A stretch of DNA of 64,000 bases from Akkermansiaceae bacterium (GTDB lineage: Bacteria; Verrucomicrobiota; Verrucomicrobiia; Verrucomicrobiales; Akkermansiaceae): NCBI GenBank assembly GCA_030725745.1, contig JANRFH010000003.1:109852-173851 (forward strand), given 5' to 3'. Shown here piece by piece: positions 44,519 to 63,595 of this stretch. Position 1 is the stretch's first letter; the number at the start of each line of letters is the position of its first letter. Both the position numbers and the translations under genes were made by a program. The notes beneath the pieces were generated by a model. It worked only from the letters and a program-made list of their open reading frames with translations, made no database searches and was not told where the DNA came from.

Positions 44519-44536
44519 TGTGACGATACTGTCACC
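44519..44536 (+). promoter_or_regulatory. Pho-box-like motif upstream of the GT4-PlcP fusion
   Basis: TGTGACGATAC (44519-44529) followed by TGTCACC (44530-44536) has two TGTNAC words 11 bases apart, as in PhoB sites. The pst region carries the closely similar TGTGACATAAG-TGTCACA at 57943-57960. A possible -10 (GATATT) lies near 44552-44557. Confidence 0.55.
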
Positions 44537-44575
44537 ACTCCGGGTGTGTCTGATATTCTCAGCTCGAGTTTCCTG

Positions 44576-44603
44576 TTATCGGAAGTGGAAGTGCTTCCGG
44601 TAA
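44576..44603 (+). promoter_or_regulatory. Inverted repeat just before the GT4-PlcP start codon
   Basis: TTATCGGAAG (44576-44585) and CTTCCGGTAA (44594-44603) are complementary at nine of ten positions, with an 8-base loop. The site ends five bases before the ATG at 44608 and could be an operator or an mRNA hairpin that hides the ribosome site. Confidence 0.45.
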
Positions 44604-44607
44604 CATT

Positions 44608-46581
44608 ATGAAAATCGACATCGTGACGGATACCTTCGCCCCGGATGTGAACGGGGTGGCCATGACATTGGGACGCCTCAGCGACGGCCTGCGTGAACGC
44701 GGCCACCGTGTCCACGTGATCCGCACGGGAGAGGGGAAACGCGGCGAAACAATCGCCGCCTCAGTGCCTTTGCCAGGTTACAAAGAAGTCCGCGTCGGCC
44801 TGCCGGGGCCTTTCAAGCTGCGCAAGCGCTGGTTGAAACGCAGGCCGGATGCGATCTACGTCGCGACCGAAAGTCCGCTGGGGAGATCTGCGGTGAAGGC
44901 GGCGAAGGCACTCGGCATCCCTGTCGCTTCCGGTTTTCACACGAATTTCCACGAATACATGGAGCGCTACAGCCTCTCCGGCCTCCAGCCGATGGCGATG
45001 GCCTACCTGAAGCGTTTCCACGACAAGACCGACTGCACCCTCGCCCCCTCCCCGGAACTGGTGGAGAAACTCAAGGCCGAGGGCTTTCACGACGTCCACC
45101 TGCTGGGTCGCGGCGTCGATACGAAACTTTTCACCCCAGCCAAACGCAGCGAAACACTACGCGCCTCATGGGGGGCGCGGGCTGCCACACCCGTCGCCAT
45201 CGTCGTCGGACGCATTGCGGCCGAGAAAAATCTCGATCTTGCCATGCGAGCCTTCGGCGAAATGCGTGCCACCGTCCCGGATCTCCAGTGCGTCATGGTC
45301 GGCGACGGGCCAGTGCGTGAAAAGCTCGCCGCGAAATTCCCATGGGTGCACTTCGCCGGCGTGCAACTCGGCGAGGATCTTGCGAAGCACTACGCCTCCG
45401 CAGACATCCTGCTTTTCCCCTCCGAGACGGAGACCTTCGGGAACGTTGTGCTCGAAGGCATGGCCAGCGGACTTGCCACGGTTGCCTACGATTACGCTGC
45501 CGCCGCGCGCTTCGTGCAGCACGGGTTGAACGGACTCAAAGCAGAAAAAGGTGATGCCGAAGGCTTCATCGAACAATCAAAGGCCGCCCTCGCCATCCGA
45601 CCCAGCCATGGTATGCGCCTTGCCGCCCGCGAGCTTGCCGAGACTCAGGGATGGGAGGCGGTTGTGAAATCCTTCGAGGAGCGGCTGGAGGAAATTTCAG
45701 GAAATGCGAAGTTGCCCGCCCGAAAAATCACGAAGCTTCCGAAGCTCGGGAAACGCGACAAGGTCAGTTTCCGCACCGTTTTCATCTCGGACATCCACCT
45801 TGGCTCAGCGGACAGCAAGGCGACCGAGGTCGTTGATTTCCTCAAACAGATCCAGTGTGAGAAGCTCGTGCTCAACGGCGACATCGTCGATGGATGGGCG
45901 CTCAAGCGCGGCTCGAAATGGCTGCCACGCCACAGCCGCGTGGTACGGAAAATCCTCAAAATGAGCGAGAAGGATAAGACCGAGGTCGTTTACCTGCGGG
46001 GAAATCACGATGACATCCTGGAGCGGTTCCTGCCGCTCGCCTTCGGCAAAATCCGTTTCCTCAAAGAGCACATCCACGTCTCTGCAGACAAACTCCGCTA
46101 CCTCGTCGTTCACGGCGATGGCTTCGATAGCGTCTCTACCAATCACAAGTGGCTCGCCACGCTCGGAGCCGTTGGCTACGACACACTGCTCGTCATCAAC
46201 CGCCACTACAACCGCTGGCGCGCATGGTGCGGAAAGGAGTATTTCTCCCTTAGCAAGCGCGTGAAGGGAAGGGTGAAATCCGCCGTCAGTTTCATCGATA
46301 AATACGAGGAACTCCTCCAGGAACTCGCCGTCCACAAGGGCTGCGATGGTATCATATGCGGTCACATCCACACCCCGGAAGACAAGCAGGTCGGCGAGAT
46401 ACGATACCTGAACTCAGGTGATTGGGTGGAGAGCCTCACTGCCATCGTCGAGCATCACGATGGACGGATGGAACTCATCAGCTACGAGGATTTCATGGCC
46501 GGATGTCACGCCCGGAGTATGGAGAAGAAAGTCATTGCGGATCGCTTCACATCGAGCGGGCCCGTTTCATTAGCGCAATAG
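44608..46581 (+). CDS. Fusion of a GT4 glycosyltransferase and a PlcP/COG2908-type metallophosphoesterase
   Basis: The 657-residue protein has two complete enzymes. Residues 1-370 form a GT4 glycosyltransferase: DTFAPDVNGVAMTLGRLSDGL, AGFHTNFHEYMERYS-type acceptor loop, VVGRIAAEKNLDLAMRAF, and the donor-binding E-x7-E region SETETFGNVVLEGMASG near 272. Residues 385-640 form a metallophosphoesterase with SDIHLG (about 394), NGDIVDGW, GNHDD (465), HGDGFD (502) and GHIHTP (585), and the INRHYNRWR/GDWVESLTAIVEHH signature of the PlcP branch of COG2908. Neither part has a leader, so both act at the inner membrane from the cytoplasm. In other bacteria PlcP hydrolyses phospholipids to diacylglycerol, which a neighbouring glycosyltransferase converts to glycolipid under phosphate starvation. 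Confidence 0.88.
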   Translation: MKIDIVTDTFAPDVNGVAMTLGRLSDGLRERGHRVHVIRTGEGKRGETIAASVPLPGYKEVRVGLPGPFKLRKRWLKRRPDAIYVATESPLGRSAVKAAKALGIPVASGFHTNFHEYMERYSLSGLQPMAMAYLKRFHDKTDCTLAPSPELVEKLKAEGFHDVHLLGRGVDTKLFTPAKRSETLRASWGARAATPVAIVVGRIAAEKNLDLAMRAFGEMRATVPDLQCVMVGDGPVREKLAAKFPWVHFAGVQLGEDLAKHYASADILLFPSETETFGNVVLEGMASGLATVAYDYAAAARFVQHGLNGLKAEKGDAEGFIEQSKAALAIRPSHGMRLAARELAETQGWEAVVKSFEERLEEISGNAKLPARKITKLPKLGKRDKVSFRTVFISDIHLGSADSKATEVVDFLKQIQCEKLVLNGDIVDGWALKRGSKWLPRHSRVVRKILKMSEKDKTEVVYLRGNHDDILERFLPLAFGKIRFLKEHIHVSADKLRYLVVHGDGFDSVSTNHKWLATLGAVGYDTLLVINRHYNRWRAWCGKEYFSLSKRVKGRVKSAVSFIDKYEELLQELAVHKGCDGIICGHIHTPEDKQVGEIRYLNSGDWVESLTAIVEHHDGRMELISYEDFMAGCHARSMEKKVIADRFTSSGPVSLAQ

Positions 46582-56498: not shown

Positions 56499-57719
56499 TT
56501 AAAAGTAGGTGCGGAAGCCGACGAGATAGGTCAGTGTCTCAAGATCACCGGTGAGACCGCTGTTCATGGTCTGATACTCGATACCTGCCTGGATCTTGGC
56601 GCTATGGCCGCAGATGTAGTAGTTCAGGCCGCCGTAGAAGGATTGGTGGGAGTCACCGCGTCCGCCGTTGATGTTGATTCCAGGGCCGACGTTGCGACGA
56701 CCGTAGCGGCTGTTGACGCGAACGCCCTGTGCTTCATCGGCGCCTTCAAACTGGTATTGTCCGACGAGCTGGAGCTTGTCTTCGACGAGCCAGTAGTAAG
56801 GAGTCACTTGGAAGCCGTAGAAACCGCCACGGCGAAGCGCGTTAACTCGGAGGTCGGTGCCGCCGTTGTCACCATAGATGACGTCAGCAAGGAAACCCCA
56901 GTTACCCGCATCATATTCTGCGCCGAAGCCGACGGCCCACGCGTAGTCCATGACTGAGTCTTCCCCCTTGGAGGCGTCTGCATCATTATATACGGCGTCC
57001 ATACGTAGGAGGAGCTCGTCGTTTGCTTGGTAAGCGACATTAAGGAGCAGAGAGTAGGTGTCATTCCAGCCGTTGAACTCGCGGTTATTGACGCCATCCG
57101 TCGTGGTGCTGTAGATCGATCCAGCGACTGTCCAGTCACCTTTCACTGCCTCGACCGTGAGACCCGTCGGGCGGAAGCTGCCGTAGACCTTGTTGGAAAG
57201 GGCGGAGCGCTCGATGGTGAGAAGCTTGGTGGAGGAGGCGTGCGCCTCGGTGCCGAAGAGGAATTTCTGGCGACCGTAGATAAGGTTTAGTTCATCGAAA
57301 CCGGTTTCTCCGAGAGCTTTGCCGAGGTTGAAGGAGACATATGCCTCATCGATGTCTTCGTAGCCCCAGTCGAGGCTGCCGCCGGAAGGGCGGTTGTCGT
57401 TAACAAGGTTCACCTGATACTTCAAACCGAAGTATTGGAGGAACTTGGCTTTCACGCCAAGACGGGCACGACGGACTTCATCGTAGTCCTCGTCGTAGTC
57501 AGTGCCGTTGACATCTTCACCTTCGACGTGTCCGTATTGGTATTGGATGCGGCCTTCAACCTGGAATTCCTGTAAGAAAGGATTGTCGCTGTTCTTGTAG
57601 AGAATGCCCGGCTTATTTCCGTACCATTCGCACCAGTCGCCGGAGTTTTCGGCAAGAGCTGCTGCGGGTGTGCCGAGAGCAAGTGCAAGGATGATGGATT
57701 TCGTGTTTTCGTATTTCAT
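56499..57719 (-). CDS. OprO/OprP-type porin (phosphate-selective porin family)
   Basis: From ATG 57719 the protein has 406 residues with a signal peptide (IILALALGTPAAALA-EN). The mature part is a beta-barrel of alternating strands (VEGRIQYQYGHVEG, RRARLGVKAKFLQYFGLKYQVNLVND, ELNLIYGRQKFLFG) with aromatic girdles and a terminal Phe (VGFRTYF), as expected for an outer-membrane barrel. The family includes the phosphate- and polyphosphate-selective porins OprP/OprO. Its place divergent from pst genes supports phosphate or phosphate-ester uptake, though selectivity cannot be read. It probably shares Pho control with pstS. The 51 bases of extra upstream frame lie in the promoter region. Confidence 0.85.
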   Translation of the reverse strand: MKYENTKSIILALALGTPAAALAENSGDWCEWYGNKPGILYKNSDNPFLQEFQVEGRIQYQYGHVEGEDVNGTDYDEDYDEVRRARLGVKAKFLQYFGLKYQVNLVNDNRPSGGSLDWGYEDIDEAYVSFNLGKALGETGFDELNLIYGRQKFLFGTEAHASSTKLLTIERSALSNKVYGSFRPTGLTVEAVKGDWTVAGSIYSTTTDGVNNREFNGWNDTYSLLLNVAYQANDELLLRMDAVYNDADASKGEDSVMDYAWAVGFGAEYDAGNWGFLADVIYGDNGGTDLRVNALRRGGFYGFQVTPYYWLVEDKLQLVGQYQFEGADEAQGVRVNSRYGRRNVGPGININGGRGDSHQSFYGGLNYYICGHSAKIQAGIEYQTMNSGLTGDLETLTYLVGFRTYF

Positions 57720-57782
57720 TGTGTTGGTATCGGATCTGGCCGACGGAGGTGTCTCTACCTCCAGCTGCATTGTTACAGAAAC

Positions 57783-57838
57783 GTCATTTATGTGACAATA
57801 GCGTCACAATGCGTCACAAAGAGTTACGAGAACGTCAC
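57783..57838 (+). promoter_or_regulatory. Array of GTCAC/GTTAC repeats between porin and pstS
   Basis: GTCAT (57783), GTCAC (57803), GTCAC (57813), GTTAC (57823) and GTCAC (57834) are spaced 10-20 bases apart on one helical face, within words of the form GCGTCACAA. They resemble tandem PhoB half-sites. Confidence 0.5.
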
Positions 57839-57938
57839 ACAAGCCCGTGAAATCGGCGAATATTTGATAGAACGGTCGCAAATGTGGCGATACCGACACA
57901 TGAAATCGGCAGCTGGTGACGAATGCGTCACGCTTCGC

Positions 57939-57964
57939 CAATTGTGACATAAGTGTCACAATTG
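57939..57964 (+). promoter_or_regulatory. Pho-box-like palindrome upstream of pstS
   Basis: CAATTGTGACA-TAAG-TGTCACAATTG is a perfect 11-bp inverted repeat with a 4-base centre. Read as direct repeats it contains TGTGACATAAG and TGTCACAATTG, with TGTNACA words 11 bases apart. The matching motif lies upstream of the GT4-PlcP fusion. Confidence 0.6.
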
Positions 57965-58051
57965 CTCTTTTGCCGAATTCCGCGCGAGCTGGCTAAGTCT
58001 GCGCCAAGGATGGCTTTCGCCTTCCCCACATCACTAGCAAACCAACGTAAA

Positions 58052-58864
58052 ATGAAAATTACCGCATCCATCGCCATTGGCACCGTCTTGGCCGCCGCAT
58101 CTTGCTTCGCGCAGGACAAACTCGTCTTCAAGGGCTCCGACACACTCGGCGCGAAGATGGTTCCCCAACTCACTGAGGCCTACACCGCCGCAGGCAATAC
58201 CGTCGGCTTTGAAATCGCTGCCGAGGGTTCCTCCGCCGCTTTCTCCAGCCTCCTCGAAGGCACCGCCGACATCGGCATGTCCTCACGTGACGTGAAGGAT
58301 GAGGAAAAGGACGCCTTCACCGCCAAGGGCCAGGAACTCGTCGAAATCGTTGCCGGCTACGACATGATCGCTGTAGTCGTTAACAAGGACAACGGTGTGC
58401 GCGACCTCACCGTCAAGCAGATCGAAGGTATCTTCACCGGTGATATCACCGACTGGAGCGAAGTTGGCGGCGCAGCCGGCCCAATCTCGGTCTACACGCG
58501 CAACACCACCTCCGGCACCTACAAGTCCTTCCAAGAAATGGCTATGGACAAGCGCGACTACGGCTCCGCCACCAACAAAATGGCTGGCAACGAGCAGATC
58601 GCTGAAGAAGTCGCCAACAACCCGAACGGCATCGGCTACGTCGGTCTCGCCTACGCAGACAAGGACGGCCTCCGTTCCGTGAAGGTCGAAGGCGAAGCCG
58701 CCAAACCGAAGAACAAGGACGCATACCCGCTTTCCCGCACACTCTACTTCTACACCGTTGGCCAGCCCGAAGGTGAGGCGAAGAAATTCCTCGACTGGGC
58801 TACTACCAGCAAAGAAGCCCACGATGTCGTGGACACCGTAGGCTTCATCCCTAACGAAAAATAA
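58052..58864 (+). CDS. pstS: Phosphate-binding protein PstS
   Basis: From ATG 58052 the protein has 270 residues. Its leader (ASIAIGTVLAAASCFA-QD) ends at a signal peptidase I-type site; although a Cys lies three residues before cleavage it lacks a good lipobox. Phosphate-contacting loops are visible: FKGSDTLGAKMV, EGSSAAFSSLLEGTADIGMSSRDV and TRNTTSGTYKSF. It captures periplasmic phosphate and delivers it to PstCA. A hairpin terminator after the gene lets PstS be made in excess over the membrane genes. The start is upstream of the divergent porin promoter with Pho-box-like sites. Confidence 0.95.
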   Translation: MKITASIAIGTVLAAASCFAQDKLVFKGSDTLGAKMVPQLTEAYTAAGNTVGFEIAAEGSSAAFSSLLEGTADIGMSSRDVKDEEKDAFTAKGQELVEIVAGYDMIAVVVNKDNGVRDLTVKQIEGIFTGDITDWSEVGGAAGPISVYTRNTTSGTYKSFQEMAMDKRDYGSATNKMAGNEQIAEEVANNPNGIGYVGLAYADKDGLRSVKVEGEAAKPKNKDAYPLSRTLYFYTVGQPEGEAKKFLDWATTSKEAHDVVDTVGFIPNEK

Positions 58865-58881: not shown

Positions 58882-58944
58882 ACGGCGGGGTAAAGGATGT
58901 GTCGTTCCCGTAACGAGGCATCCCTTGACCCCGCCGTTTTTTTT
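58882..58944 (+). terminator. Terminator/attenuator between pstS and pstC
   Basis: ACGGCGGGGTAAAGGATG (58882-58899) pairs with CATCCCTTGACCCCGCCGT (58919-58937) with one bulge, followed by eight T (58937-58944). Partial read-through would give high pstS and lower pstCAB expression. Confidence 0.85.
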
Positions 58945-58962
58945 ATATCCCCTCAAAGGTTC

Positions 58963-60882
58963 ATGGCCACCCATTTCAAGCGCAAAGGAAAGCGACTGCT
59001 AGGCATTGATCGCCAAAGCGCCATCCGCTTCTTTTTCGGCGGAAATGCGATGATTTCCATCCTGGTTCTTGGAGCGATCTGCCTCTTCCTCGCGAGGGAA
59101 GCGGTATTGTTTTTTCCCCAGCATCAGAGGGATCTCGAAGTCTTCCGCCTAACAGGGCAAGAATACGCGAATTTCGTCATCGAGGAGATGGATGAATTCA
59201 CCGAGGTGAAAAGCTTGGCAGATCAAGCGTTTTACCAAGAAATGAACGAAGCCTATGGGATCCAGCGCGGACTCGTGGATTGCTACGGAGCTTTGAACGA
59301 CAGACTTTTCGACAACGGGGAAGACCTGATCGATGAGCTTGAGGACGCCCGCGACGAACTCGATGACGCGGACGGAGAAGAGGAAGAAACGCTAGCCCAG
59401 GCGGACCTGGATGGAATCCAGTCAGAGTGGGATGATTTCCTCCGGGCGGAGCTCGGAAAAGCCGATAGAAAGACGATCGATTCCTTCGGCAGGCTTGGTG
59501 AAAAGGAGTGGCAGGAGCTACTCGATGCCATGGCCAGTTGGGATCCTGTGGAGGACGAGCCACCCGCCCTTGTCAATGACGCGAAGGCGGAAATGACCAA
59601 GGGCATGGCAGCCTTCGATGCCGCACGAATGCAGATCGGCAGCGCTGGCTCAGAGCTTGCGAGGCTGCGAAGTGAGATCATCAAGATCACCACCGAAATC
59701 AAAACTGAAGCCGTGGCCGACATGAGCTCCGCTGCCCGCAAAAAGGCGCTTCTGGAGGGCTCCGTCAACGCGGCGACCGAAGAGGCACGCGCCAGCTTAA
59801 AAGCACAGGCGGAAGCGATCACCATCCGCGAGAATTTCCCCTACAGTGAGCGCATCAAGGCACTGGAGGGCAGCCGGGAAAAACACGAGGCCGCAGTTAC
59901 GTCGTTAAAGTCAGGTATGCAAGCCGGTGTCGCTGCCCTGCCTACGGAATTTGCCTCTACTGAGGTGGAAACGCTCGTCAGCCGCATCCGTGAGAGAACC
60001 CCCGGACTTTTCGAATACCTCGATACTAGTCTTAAAGAATCCGCAGACTGGCGCTACGATGAACCAGTCAGCTGGCTAAGCTCGGTCAGCTCCTTCTTTT
60101 TCGGAAAAGACTGGGTCACGAACAGCTCGTTCCATGACTTCTACGGCCTTCTTCCGCTCTTCACAGGATCGTTGCTCATTTCCATCATCGCGCTGATCGT
60201 GGCGATCCCATTCTCCCTCGGCGCGGCGATCTACGTGAACCGTCTAGCCGGCCCTAGGCAGCAGAATTTCATCAAGCCCGTCATCGAGCTGATCGGTGCC
60301 ATCCCTTCGGTCGTGCTAGGTTTTTTCGGAATCATCGTCCTCGGTGAGGCGCTGCGCCAGACCAGTCAGCTAGAATGGCTCTCATGGGTGCCGGGCTTCC
60401 CCATGCAAGAGCGCTTGAACATCCTTAACGCAGGCCTCCTCCTCGCCCTGATGGCCGTCCCGACGATTTTCACCCTCTGCGAAGACGCGATCAACAACGT
60501 CCCATCCTCCTTCACCGAAGCCTCGCTCGCCCTCGGCGGTTCGAAGCTCCAGACGGTCATGAGAATCGTGGTGCCCGCGGCGATTTCCGGAATTTTCGCC
60601 GCCATCCTGCTCGGCTTCGGGCGCGTCATCGGTGAGACGATGGTGGTGCTGCTGGTAGCGGGAAATCAGATCGCGATACCAGACTTCGGCCTCGGCGTGG
60701 GCGTCATCACCCAGCCCGCTCACACCATGACAGGCATCATCGCCCAAGAAATGGGAGAGGTAACTGCAGACACCATCCACTACCGCGCGCTCTTCTCCGT
60801 CGGCCTCGTGCTCTTCACCATCTCCCTCCTTATCAACATCAGCGCACGCCGCATCATCAAGCGTTTCGGCCTCGCCGCTTGA
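58963..60882 (+). CDS. pstC: Phosphate permease PstC with a long periplasmic insertion
   Basis: From ATG 58963 the protein has 639 residues, about twice a usual PstC. Residues 22-45 are the first membrane helix (FFGGNAMISILVLGAICLFLA). Residues 45-390 are an acidic, coiled-coil-rich insertion with repeated helical stretches (DEFTEVKSLADQAF, LEDARDELDDADGEEEETLAQ, MSSAARKKALLEG). The permease core with five helices and the EAA-type loop (SFTEASLALGGSKLQTVMRIVVPAAISGIF) follows from about 394 (GLLPLFTGSLLISIIALIVAIPFSLGAAIYVN). An AAAGG sequence lies five bases before the ATG. Confidence 0.9.
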   Translation: MATHFKRKGKRLLGIDRQSAIRFFFGGNAMISILVLGAICLFLAREAVLFFPQHQRDLEVFRLTGQEYANFVIEEMDEFTEVKSLADQAFYQEMNEAYGIQRGLVDCYGALNDRLFDNGEDLIDELEDARDELDDADGEEEETLAQADLDGIQSEWDDFLRAELGKADRKTIDSFGRLGEKEWQELLDAMASWDPVEDEPPALVNDAKAEMTKGMAAFDAARMQIGSAGSELARLRSEIIKITTEIKTEAVADMSSAARKKALLEGSVNAATEEARASLKAQAEAITIRENFPYSERIKALEGSREKHEAAVTSLKSGMQAGVAALPTEFASTEVETLVSRIRERTPGLFEYLDTSLKESADWRYDEPVSWLSSVSSFFFGKDWVTNSSFHDFYGLLPLFTGSLLISIIALIVAIPFSLGAAIYVNRLAGPRQQNFIKPVIELIGAIPSVVLGFFGIIVLGEALRQTSQLEWLSWVPGFPMQERLNILNAGLLLALMAVPTIFTLCEDAINNVPSSFTEASLALGGSKLQTVMRIVVPAAISGIFAAILLGFGRVIGETMVVLLVAGNQIAIPDFGLGVGVITQPAHTMTGIIAQEMGEVTADTIHYRALFSVGLVLFTISLLINISARRIIKRFGLAA

Positions 60883-60895
60883 TCCTCCCTCCGCC

Positions 60896-62038
60896 ATGAA
60901 TCCCTTCAAATCTAGCTCCAGCGCTCAGAAAACGAAAGACGGCCTCCTCTCGGGTTTCTTCGCCCTGCTGACCTACCTCATCCTGGGCTGCACGCTGTTC
61001 ATCTTCTTCGATATCGCGAAAAAAGGTCTGCCGGTGCTCATGCCCGTTTTTTCCGAAAAGGGCGGGGAGGTCGTCGATTTGGATTTCCTCACTCGCATGC
61101 CCGAGACCCTCGTCGATTACACCGATGAGAATGGTGAAAAGCAGTCCCTAGCTTCCTCAGATTTCATCGAATACACCAAGGCCAATCCAGACGCGGTGAT
61201 TGAGAACAAGAAAACAAACGCCTACTCCGGTGGAGGCATCGCCGGGCCATTGGTCGGCACCGCTTTGCTCGTGATTGTCTGCATGGTGGTGGCGCTCATC
61301 GTGGGCGTGGCGGCTGCAGTTTATCTCAATGAATACGCGAAGCAGGGTCGCTTCGTCGGCATGATACGCCTCGCGATTATGAACCTCGCCGGCGTGCCAT
61401 CCATCGTCTTCGGCCTCTTCGGTTTCGCCTTTTTCTGCCTATTTCCGCTCCCCATCTTCACCATGATCGTCAATGAGGAGAAGTCACTAGCCGCGATCCC
61501 TATGTTCGGCGGCTACCTCAGCTTCCAGGGCTGGGGCAACTCCCTACTCGCCGGTGGCCTCACCCTCGCGGTCATGGTGCTGCCAGTGATCATCGCCGCC
61601 TGCGAAGAATCCTTAAAAGCGATCCCCAAAGGCTTCCGCGAAGCCTCGCTCGCCCTAGGTGCCACGAAATGGCAATGCATTCGCACCGCCGTCCTACCCT
61701 ACGCAACCCCCGGTATCCTCACCGCCTCCGTCCTCGGCGTCACCCGCGTCGCCGGTGAGACGGCGCCCATCATGTTCACCGCCGCCGTCGCGCTGAAAGG
61801 CAAGCTGCCCTGGCAAGAAGCCGATGGAAAAGGCATCTTCTGGGTATCCGATCTGCTCACAGATTCCGTGCAGGCCATGCCCTACCACATCTACACCGTC
61901 GCCGCCCGCATCCCGCGCACGGACGCCACCGCCGCCATGCAAGACGGCTCAGTCTTCGTTTTCCTCCTCATGGTCATGACCTTCGCCTCGGTCTCGATCT
62001 ACCTCCGCATTCATTTCCGTAAAAAACTCAAATGGTGA
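60896..62038 (+). CDS. pstA: Phosphate permease PstA
   Basis: The 380-residue protein has a first membrane helix ([22 protein letters not shown]), a periplasmic segment of about 70 residues ([25 protein letters not shown]), and the PstA permease core with [29 protein letters not shown] and the EAA loop [33 protein letters not shown]. It forms the phosphate channel with PstC. It starts 13 bases after the pstC stop and its end overlaps pstB by seven bases, so expression is coupled. Confidence 0.93.
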
Positions 62039-62907
62039 CCACCTCCCCATCCGATCCCATGACTGAACTAGCAACACCCGTGGAAAGTCCCGCAAAAGCT
62101 TCGCCATCGACGAAGGCAAACAACCCAAACCCGATCGCCGAGCAAGACGCGATGATCGAGATCGACGACGTATCCTTCAGCTATGATATGGGGAAAACGA
62201 ACGTCCTGAAGAACATCTCGTTCAACATCCCCGCTGGCAAGGTCACCGCCCTCATCGGCCCCTCAGGCTGCGGAAAATCGACCCTTCTGCGCTGCCTGAA
62301 CCGCATGAACGACCTCGTTGACACCTCGAAGGTCACCACCGGCCAGATTCGCATCATGGGGCAAGACATCAACGCACACGATGTCGATCCCATTGAGCTT
62401 CGCAAACAGGTCGGCATGGTGTTCCAGAAATACAACCCTTTCCCGAAAAGCATTTACGAAAACGTCGCCTACGGTCTGCGCATCCAAGGCATCAAAAACA
62501 AGGCCAGGCTCGATGAGGCGGTCGAAAAATCCCTCCAGCGCGCCGCCCTCTGGAATGAGGTAAAAGACCGTTTGAACTCCAGCGCACTTGGTCTTTCCGG
62601 TGGCCAGCAGCAGCGCCTCTGCATCGCCCGCACCATCGCCGTCAACCCGCGTATCGTCCTCATGGATGAGCCATGCTCCGCGCTCGACCCCATCGCCACC
62701 GCCCGCATTGAGGAGCTCATCGCCGAGCTTCAGGAAGAGTTCACCATCGTCATCGTGACCCACAATATGCAGCAGGCCACCCGCGTCTCGGATCGCACCG
62801 CCTTCTTCTACCTTGGCGAACTCATCGAATACGACGACACCACCACCATTTTCGGAAACCCCTCAGTGACCCAGACGGAAGACTACGTCAGCGGGCGCTT
62901 CGGGTGA
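62032..62907 (+). CDS. pstB: Phosphate transport ATPase PstB
   Basis: The ABC ATPase has 291 residues from ATG 62032; ATG 62059 ([13 protein letters not shown]) is an alternative and the first 40 residues are a non-conserved, Pro/Ser-rich tail. Walker A is GPSGCGKST, the Q-loop is [12 protein letters not shown], the signature is [12 protein letters not shown], Walker B is [13 protein letters not shown] and the H-loop is VTHNM. It energises PstCA. The pathway can also signal phosphate status with PhoU. Confidence 0.95.
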
Positions 62908-62917
62908 ATATAACACC

Positions 62918-63595
62918 ATGCCTCCGGAAGAACCGTCACAACACATCCTAAGCTCCTTCGATGCCGAACTGGAGCAGCTCAGGATCGACCTCATCCAGAT
63001 GGGAAATCTTGTCCTGCGCGCTGTGGACGGCTCGGTGAATGGACTCCTCACAAGGGATATCGAGCGTTGCAGCGATGTGATCGACGACGATGAGCTGATC
63101 GACCAGAAACAAAAGGAGATCGATAGCAGGGGCATGTCCATCCTGCTCCGCTACAGCCCCATGGCCTCGGATTTCCGCGCAGCCGTCTCCGCCCTCAGCG
63201 TATGCCGCTCTCTTGAGCGTGTCGGCGACCATGCAGTGAACATTTCCAAATCCTCTCGCAAGATACTCAAGCATGGCGAGTGCCCGGAGATCGGTCTTGT
63301 AAAACCGCTCTTCGAGGCGACCCGCAGCCAATTGGTCAAAGCCCTACAAGCATATACGAACGCCGATTCCTTACAGGCCTTGGAAATCATCGAAGGTGAC
63401 AAAAAGGTCGATAAGCTTCACAAAAAACTCTCCAAGGCACTTCCCGCCATGGTGGACAGCGGTGGTAGCGATGTGAAGGGCATCCTCCATCTCCTCTTTA
63501 TCTCACGTTTCTTAGAGCGCATCGGAGACCTTGCCGCGAGCATCGGCGAAGATGTCGTCTTCATCAGCTCTGCCGAAGACATCCGCCACGCCTGA
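62918..63595 (+). CDS. phoU: Phosphate signalling protein PhoU, first copy
   Basis: The 225-residue protein has the two three-helix PhoU repeats with metal-site motifs: DDDELIDQKQKEIDSRG and RSLERVGDHAVNISKS in the first, and GDKKVDKLHKKL and SRFLERIGDLAASIGEDVVF in the second. PhoU damps Pst activity and the PhoR/PhoB response. It starts 11 bases after pstB, so it is in the same operon. Confidence 0.93.
   Translation: MPPEEPSQHILSSFDAELEQLRIDLIQMGNLVLRAVDGSVNGLLTRDIERCSDVIDDDELIDQKQKEIDSRGMSILLRYSPMASDFRAAVSALSVCRSLERVGDHAVNISKSSRKILKHGECPEIGLVKPLFEATRSQLVKALQAYTNADSLQALEIIEGDKKVDKLHKKLSKALPAMVDSGGSDVKGILHLLFISRFLERIGDLAASIGEDVVFISSAEDIRHA

Follow-up and report, generated by a model that had tools for sequence, protein, structure and literature searches.

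A gene coding for an N-terminal glycosyltransferase of family GT4 and a C-terminal PlcP-type metallophosphoesterase in one chain, preceded by a predicted Pho box, was characterised in a 64,000-nucleotide stretch of an Akkermansiaceae genome (GCA_030725745.1, contig JANRFH010000003.1, positions 109,852 to 173,851; hereafter the window). The fusion is confirmed as a real feature of this DNA, and its product is probably a PhoB-controlled, two-step bifunctional enzyme of lipid remodelling. When phosphate is low, PhoB would bind at 44519-44535 and the gene would be expressed along with pst, porin and phoBR. The PlcP domain, at the C-terminus, would remove the head group of a membrane glycerophospholipid, yielding diacylglycerol, and the N-terminal GT4 domain would transfer to it a single sugar, glucuronate or glucose, from a UDP-sugar donor, giving glucuronic acid diacylglycerol (GADG) or monoglucosyl diacylglycerol (MGDG). 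The PlcP-Agt pathway is already known with separate genes, some under Pho boxes, from passages in PMC8528852, PMC4796936 and PMC9239053, and it is the fusion in one chain that appears new.

Structure of the fusion gene

The gene (44608..46581, + strand; G000:C3:154459-156429 in the genome numbering used for comparison with relatives) is a single open reading frame (ORF) of 657 amino acids, in which Pfam places Glyco_transf_4 at residues 14-173, Glyco_trans_1_4 at 195-325 and Metallophos at 389-590, all above the curated cut-offs. The GT4 domains thus span residues 14-331 and the calcineurin-like phosphoesterase 389-590; six of the seven Pfam families reported for the protein exceed their cut-off, GT4-conflict falling below it. 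The two complete enzymes in one chain proposed in the preliminary description of this DNA were therefore recovered, with catalytic motifs and metal ligands intact, and the peptides INRHYNRW and GDWVESLTAIVEHH, which it had named as PlcP-type motifs, both occur in the translation. Pfam, motifs, fold and phylogeny define an Agt2-like GT4 half (residues 1-365; 44608..45702, +), followed by a poorly conserved linker (residues 366-385; 45703..45762, +) with a predicted local distance difference test score (pLDDT) below 50 at residues 369-378, and by the PlcP-type half (residues 386-630; 45763..46497, +), delimited by alignments, tree and fold.

The preliminary description had suggested looking for the fusion in other genomes, and a single ORF longer than 550 amino acids matching both halves was found at 67 non-redundant loci (the window's own included), two of which have a degenerate glycosyltransferase half. 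The fusion is thus not an assembly slip of one genome. Purifying selection acts on both halves: the ratio of nonsynonymous to synonymous substitution rates (dN/dS) was 0.06-0.14 in the seven comparisons giving a value (against L041, L042, L048 and L010) and 0.08-0.14 for the glycosyltransferase half alone, which was saturated against L048 and gave no value there. The linker ranged from 0.34 to 1.39, a figure drawn from only 12-20 codons. The model of the whole chain reached a predicted template modelling score (pTM) of 0.57, at which the relative placement of the two domains is unreadable, so that we propose no geometry for a channel.

Phosphoesterase half

Phylogeny of 46 rows places the phosphoesterase half on a 40-row side together with the PlcP proteins of Sinorhizobium meliloti (locus L155) and Pseudomonas aeruginosa (L156); on the other side of the split, which has support of 100/99, stand four LpxH rows and two from Bacteroidota. 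Pannonibacter and two of the LpxH rows carried end branches flagged as long, three in all, the window's branch not being among them. Its identity is 43% to the S. meliloti PlcP, 44% to that of P. aeruginosa and 21-25% to the four LpxH proteins. In the alignment, the metal ligands and a GNHD motif are present in all 38 PlcP-type rows and GNRD in all four LpxH rows, and D395, H397, D425, N466, H467, H502, H586 and H588 are invariant across 37 aligned fusions. The half scored 46.5 and 29.2 bits on LpxH models with cut-offs of 134 and 190.35, in the manner of known PlcP proteins (38-55 bits) and far from E. coli LpxH (364-389 bits). In the same genome LpxI is present (152.4 bits, cut-off 25), and a model search found no LpxH above cut-off. 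The PlcP assignment made in the preliminary description, for which phylogeny had been set as the test, was thus upheld, and the half is of PlcP type, with a predicted phospholipase C activity.

The half was also folded separately, since GT-B enzymes filled the fold search with the whole model (pLDDT 80.3, pTM 0.74 for the half alone). Its nearest fold is LpxH 5wly (Z 19.0, root mean square deviation 2.7 over 175 residues); LpxH structures make up the top 23 of the best 50 matches (Z 17.8-19.0), among which no solved PlcP occurs. E. coli LpxH accordingly shares the calcineurin-like fold and most metal ligands with the half, but differs in its low identity (25% over 144 residues), its clade and its GNRD in place of GNHD.

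Locus L155, where LuxR and acyl-homoserine-lactone-synthase genes lie upstream of the PlcP gene, is taken to be SMc00171 on the strength of that neighbourhood. This protein has the metal ligands and PlcP-specific residues of the window's half, but stands alone. At L156 the PlcP gene is paired with a glycosyltransferase gene whose start overlaps the PlcP stop, and PA3219-PA3218 are described likewise, as an apparent operon, in a passage of PMC8528852.

Glycosyltransferase half

The motifs of the glycosyltransferase half are intact, namely H111 (in HTN), GRIAAEKN at 201-208, GDGP at 232-235 and E275-x7-E283 (FPSETETFGNVVLE), and its GT-B fold is best matched by MshA 3c4q_B (Z 36.5, root mean square deviation 2.7 over 357 residues). 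Its identity to a glycosyltransferase of P. aeruginosa (L162) is 45%; that enzyme is encoded beside plcR, cerN and a gene for a phosphocholine-specific phospholipase C, and from these neighbours we take it to be Agt2 (PA0842). In the glycosyltransferase tree, the window's half and the Agt2-locus enzyme form one group (94/94), and Agt1 with the Sphingomonas, Roseomonas and Rhizobium enzymes another (100/100), in an analysis whose bootstrap had not settled, whose long branches were flagged and whose set did not include the Agrobacterium Agt. By sequence, the half is closer to P. aeruginosa Agt2 than to the sampled Agt1 and rhizobial-type enzymes. Both it and the Agt2-locus enzyme carry Glu as catalytic acid, as against Asp in Agt1 and in the Pelagibacter enzyme (GTcp); the latter, according to passages of PMC8231724, has a catalytic dyad and two UDP-sugar motifs, and replacing its catalytic Asp with Glu costs more than 90% of the activity. 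Unlike the window's half, Agt2 is a stand-alone protein encoded beside plcR and not plcP. Agt2 yields GADG in E. coli, as stated in part of PMC8528852, and GADG would be the likelier product here. The best NCBIfam match of the half is the N-acetylglucosaminyl-phosphatidylglycerol (GlcN-PG) synthase model, at 140.6 bits against a cut-off of 480; the Agt2-locus enzyme scored 135.2 bits on the same model.

Predicted Pho box and regulation

The predicted Pho box, TGTGAC-N5-TGTCAC (44519..44535, +), is an exact match starting 89 bases 5' of the start codon. The likeness to a motif before pstS noted in the preliminary description held at genome scale: exact TGTNAC-N5-TGTNAC occurs at nine places (10 rows) in the genome, one before the fusion, two between the porin gene and pstS, one before a response regulator/kinase pair and five elsewhere. 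The response regulator and kinase lie directly 3' of their site, and their best NCBIfam matches are PhoB and PnpS/PhoR. The repeat has the 11-base period of the Pho regulon and is common to phoB-like and pstS genes, and in all likelihood the site is a Pho box, through which PhoB would induce the fusion gene when phosphate is scarce. The five other exact sites (G000:C2:90716, C12:104736, C23:8197, C30:34649 and C36:6007) lie near GNVR/Wzz-like, Phosphodiest, TonB-plug, one unknown and dnaA genes, and are candidate regulon members or chance occurrences. Within the window, 11 matches with up to two mismatches were counted, some being one site read in both orientations; 100 shuffles averaged 3.08 matches and gave 9 at most.

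Conservation was assessed upstream of the 67 fusion genes, 23 of which have a site within one mismatch (seven control patterns: 0-1); 17 of the 23 start 80-100 bases before the start codon, some of these relatives being near-identical. A matrix built from 46 sites in the fusion promoters of 66 relatives, the window left out, scored the 25 bases around 44519-44535 at 21.8 bits, and the four own-genome promoters at 21.8-24.3 bits, the pstS and porin regions sharing one site; none of 200 shuffles reached the score in any case. Upstream of pstS-like matches, a matrix site equalled in at most 1 of 100 shuffles was present in 27 of 30 regions (26 of 29 in relatives alone), the five weakest PstS matches being only about 32-33% identical. 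Operons of the sister family (f2) scored 20.2 (L145), 13.7 (L154) and 9.7 bits (L149).

As a negative control, 172 upstream regions of other ORFs from the same loci were scored, and 23 reached at least 14 bits. The genes behind 19 of these, four having been left out of the Pfam scan, comprise Porin O/P (5), PBP-like binding protein (4), transport permease (1), choice-of-anchor-I (2), DUF6938 (2) and five with no Pfam match; since regulon genes were among the control regions, the set was not clean, and at least the last seven of these genes, the two with DUF6938 and the five without a match, could either belong to the regulon or be false positives. An adenosine deaminase search meant as a further control matched in 11 of 40 genomes and was not used. 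At five loci, an ORF of about 572-574 amino acids convergent with the fusion has a Pho-box-like site upstream (L056:2732-4456, L061:5822-7540, L063:5821-7545, L070:6105-7823 and L074:5848-7566, all on the - strand); the three scanned (L056, L061, L074) had no Pfam match at 1e-5.

Distribution and probable origin of the fusion

The PlcP half was detected in 118 of 387 Verrucomicrobiota genomes (E 1e-20). Among the 39 genomes of the window's family (f1), 28 have a frame of at least 643 amino acids, one has a stand-alone PlcP (G193) and 10, all of genus g2, have none, so that the fusion occurs throughout the family, in 28 of the 29 PlcP-bearing genomes sampled. Twenty-two of the 28 were aligned over both halves (L009-L030), and the other six (G307, G316, G319, G327, G354 and G378) were counted by frame length only. 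A protein C-terminus is common to G243, of the window's genus, and Luteolibacter pohnpeiensis (L066), and another to G277 and Haloferula rosea (L091); genus g2 is very probably Akkermansia, and the fusion-bearing family very probably includes A. muciniphila.

Sixty-four named loci, located with six peptide patterns from the PlcP half of the window's gene and hence biased towards close relatives, comprise 48 full fusions by the thresholds applied here, seven PlcP genes lacking the glycosyltransferase body, six separate PlcP ORFs (L095-L097 and L099-L101, outside f1 by title or tree) and three unclassified loci (L098 and two at contig ends, L103 and L104). No fusion outside f1 was confirmed among the 387 Verrucomicrobiota genomes or in other phyla as sampled through plasmid records. 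Long open frames in G223, G128 and G001 (764, 725 and 698 amino acids) each resolved into two separate ORFs in the fetched DNA, and those in G038 and G060 were rejected because the glycosyltransferase is read in another frame than PlcP or is separated from it by 2 kb.

In the sister family, separate glycosyltransferase and PlcP genes stand in the order of the fusion, overlapping (by 4 bases at both L145 and L154) or adjoining; because of this shared order and overlap, the fusion probably derives from an operon of the f2 type. The PlcP gene comes first in the gene pairs of Pseudomonas, Sphingomonas and Roseomonas. In other Verrucomicrobiota, plcP lies near an ORF resembling, by eye, a GT28-type diacylglycerol glycosyltransferase (L150:377-4408, L151:2711-4703). 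A distant COG2908 branch in Pannonibacter (L216:1878-3919) adjoins a gene annotated as ceramide glucosyltransferase, possibly a pair of a PlcP-like enzyme and another lipid glycosyltransferase.

Loss and decay of the glycosyltransferase half

In genus g2, PlcP is kept in 14 of 76 genomes (E 1e-15), and in 13 of 55 when the less complete genomes are set aside; the remaining 62 of the 76 match neither the fusion nor PlcP, the system having been lost, or never kept, in most of the genus. The 14 PlcP-bearing genomes comprise 10 with intact glycosyltransferase motifs, two with a degenerate glycosyltransferase and two with a stand-alone PlcP. The degenerate fusions (G231, L030:1453-3354, - strand; G096, L029:1501-3411, + strand) have replaced the catalytic His, the EKN of GRxAxEKN, GDGP and the first Glu of E-x7-E, and retain the second Glu and the PlcP ligands. 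Each is a probable pseudo-glycosyltransferase joined to a live phosphoesterase. Between the two, the glycosyltransferase halves are 35% identical and the PlcP halves 74%.

At seven named loci from metagenome-assembled genomes (MAGs), a short N-terminus takes the place of the glycosyltransferase ahead of PlcP (starts: L072 611, L073 4851, L079 4788, L080 4935, L082 4148, L087 4605, L089 4896). Remnants have statistical support in L087, where residues 1-38, 117-177 and those from 349 on follow one another contiguously in one frame, and in L072, which keeps residues 1-41; support is weak in the near-identical loci L082 and L089 (E 0.02 and 0.008); in L073 and L079 a remnant is seen at most by eye, and L080 has none. 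A Pho-box match of 17.9-27.3 bits lies at -89 to -98 in six of the seven, L080 having none (4.7 bits). An assembly error is possible at any single one of these MAG loci. A quick tree built from 71 PlcP rows requires seven changes between an intact and a lost glycosyltransferase, and its starred branches force at least three for the fused label. This repeated loss with PlcP kept marks PlcP as the conserved core of the system.

The pst/porin neighbourhood

Further along the window, a homologue of the phosphate-selective porin O/P (56499..57770, -; Porin_O_P 50.1 bits, cut-off 20.9) is divergent from pstS, and the interval between them (57791..57960) holds a cluster of exact Pho-box matches at 57792-57808 (-), 57943-57959 (+) and 57944-57960 (-). 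The longest-start ORF of pstS is 57953..58864 (+; TIGR02136 209.0 bits, cut-off 206.6); translation probably begins at the ATG near 58052, which puts the Pho box upstream of the gene. There follow, all on the + strand and above cut-off, pstC (58897..60882, TIGR02138), pstA (60896..62038, TIGR00974), pstB (62032..62907, TIGR00972) and phoU (62918..63595, TIGR02135). The divergent porin and PstS-like pair (56499-58864 in the window) recurs in L042, L044 and L045. Flanking pst, porin or pho genes were seen at 17 of 63 named loci, a count that includes loci other than fusions and for which the chance rate was not computed; at L060, pstS starts 118 bases 3' of the fusion, and at L087, which lacks the glycosyltransferase body, phoBR-like genes follow.

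Discussion

The system described here shares enzyme families, predicted substrates, some Pho boxes and often adjoining genes with the PlcP-Agt pathway of Sinorhizobium, Agrobacterium, Pelagibacter, Phaeobacter, Pseudomonas and Methylosinus, as portrayed in passages of the literature on it. Elsewhere, however, two proteins are involved, with plcP leading in each of the three pairs inspected, whereas the window has one chain, with the glycosyltransferase first, in Verrucomicrobiota. A PlcP homologue had earlier been noted in one verrucomicrobium (in part of PMC4796936), and a passage of PMC9239053 reports PlcP as absent from verrucomicrobial methanotrophs. Our search of the open-licence literature returned no description of a GT4-PlcP fusion and nothing relevant on glycolipids of Akkermansia or Luteolibacter.

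Several observations weigh against a PhoB-controlled two-step enzyme. Its enzyme activities, the sugar, PhoB binding, phosphate induction and any benefit of coupling are inferred. The donor and acceptor are not readable from the sequence, and the GlcN-PG synthase match leaves phosphatidylglycerol as a possible acceptor. On the regulatory side, the names PhoB and PhoR stand for best NCBIfam matches below the curated equivalog cut-offs (229.7 vs 296.2 and 244.1 vs 334.2 bits). With one mismatch allowed, the motif has 58 matches in the genome and its reversed control 68, so that only exact, placed or conserved sites count. Just 23 of the 67 fusion promoters come within one mismatch of the pattern, three of the 30 pstS loci (L166, L183 and L187) have no good matrix site, and separate glycosyltransferase genes beyond both families score low (-2.3 to 11.4 bits in five of six; 17.6 in L142). 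Lipids of A. muciniphila at three phosphate levels (0.02, 0.2 and 2 mM) were dominated throughout by ornithine lipids, which are immunomodulatory, and glycosyl-diacylglycerol is without mention in the passages of PMC9981464 describing them. Finally, the repeated loss of the glycosyltransferase half with PlcP kept indicates that the two activities are separable, and obligate channelling of diacylglycerol is doubtful; we place it well below the two-step bifunctional enzyme. The fusion itself speaks for coupling; the poorly conserved linker, the uncertain domain placement and the dispensable glycosyltransferase speak otherwise. A fuller scenario can be offered tentatively, in which a single chain would pass diacylglycerol from PlcP to the glycosyltransferase at the membrane throughout the family (very probably including A. 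muciniphila), the latter having decayed or been excised in derived lines to leave a Pho-driven phospholipase with a vestigial partner.

Other functions for the two halves appear much less probable. The idea that the glycosyltransferase half acts on phosphatidylglycerol in a GlcN-PG-like reaction and the PlcP half on other lipids, the two being co-regulated but not consecutive, draws on the best NCBIfam match and is unlikely: that score lies far under its cut-off, the Agt2-locus enzyme scores similarly and gives GADG in E. coli (as above, from part of PMC8528852), and a glycosylated phospholipid made under a Pho box would save no phosphate. That the glycosyltransferase half serves PlcP chiefly as a scaffold, for membrane docking or regulation, with diacylglycerol feeding other enzymes and glycosylation secondary, would agree with the seven loci where its body is gone, PlcP is intact and a Pho-box match near -90 persists in six, and with the two genomes that keep a full-length chain with catalytic residues replaced; it is nevertheless very unlikely, given the intact motifs in the window gene and in 10 of 12 full-length g2 fusions and the low dN/dS of this half. 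The least probable, and one we reject, is an LpxH function (UDP-2,3-diacylglucosamine diphosphatase) in lipid A synthesis with the GT4 domain adding a lipopolysaccharide sugar. The LpxH-like alternative had been raised in the preliminary description, the nearest solved structures to the phosphoesterase half are LpxH, and PlcP genes in other records are annotated 'UDP-2,3-diacylglucosamine diphosphatase'; yet the half belongs to a separate clade, carries GNHD, scores on LpxH models as known PlcP does, sits in a genome with LpxI and no LpxH above cut-off, and lacks a match in 62 of 76 g2 genomes.

A PhoB-controlled two-step enzyme bears on the biology of the family in several ways. The fusion provides a link between PlcP and a lipid glycosyltransferase that does not depend on mutant data, and it would extend phosphate-stress lipid remodelling to a family very probably including A. 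muciniphila, in which glycolipids are predicted to occur. The natural series of intact, degenerate-glycosyltransferase and glycosyltransferase-less forms, together with separate overlapping genes, is well suited to asking whether coupling the two steps pays.

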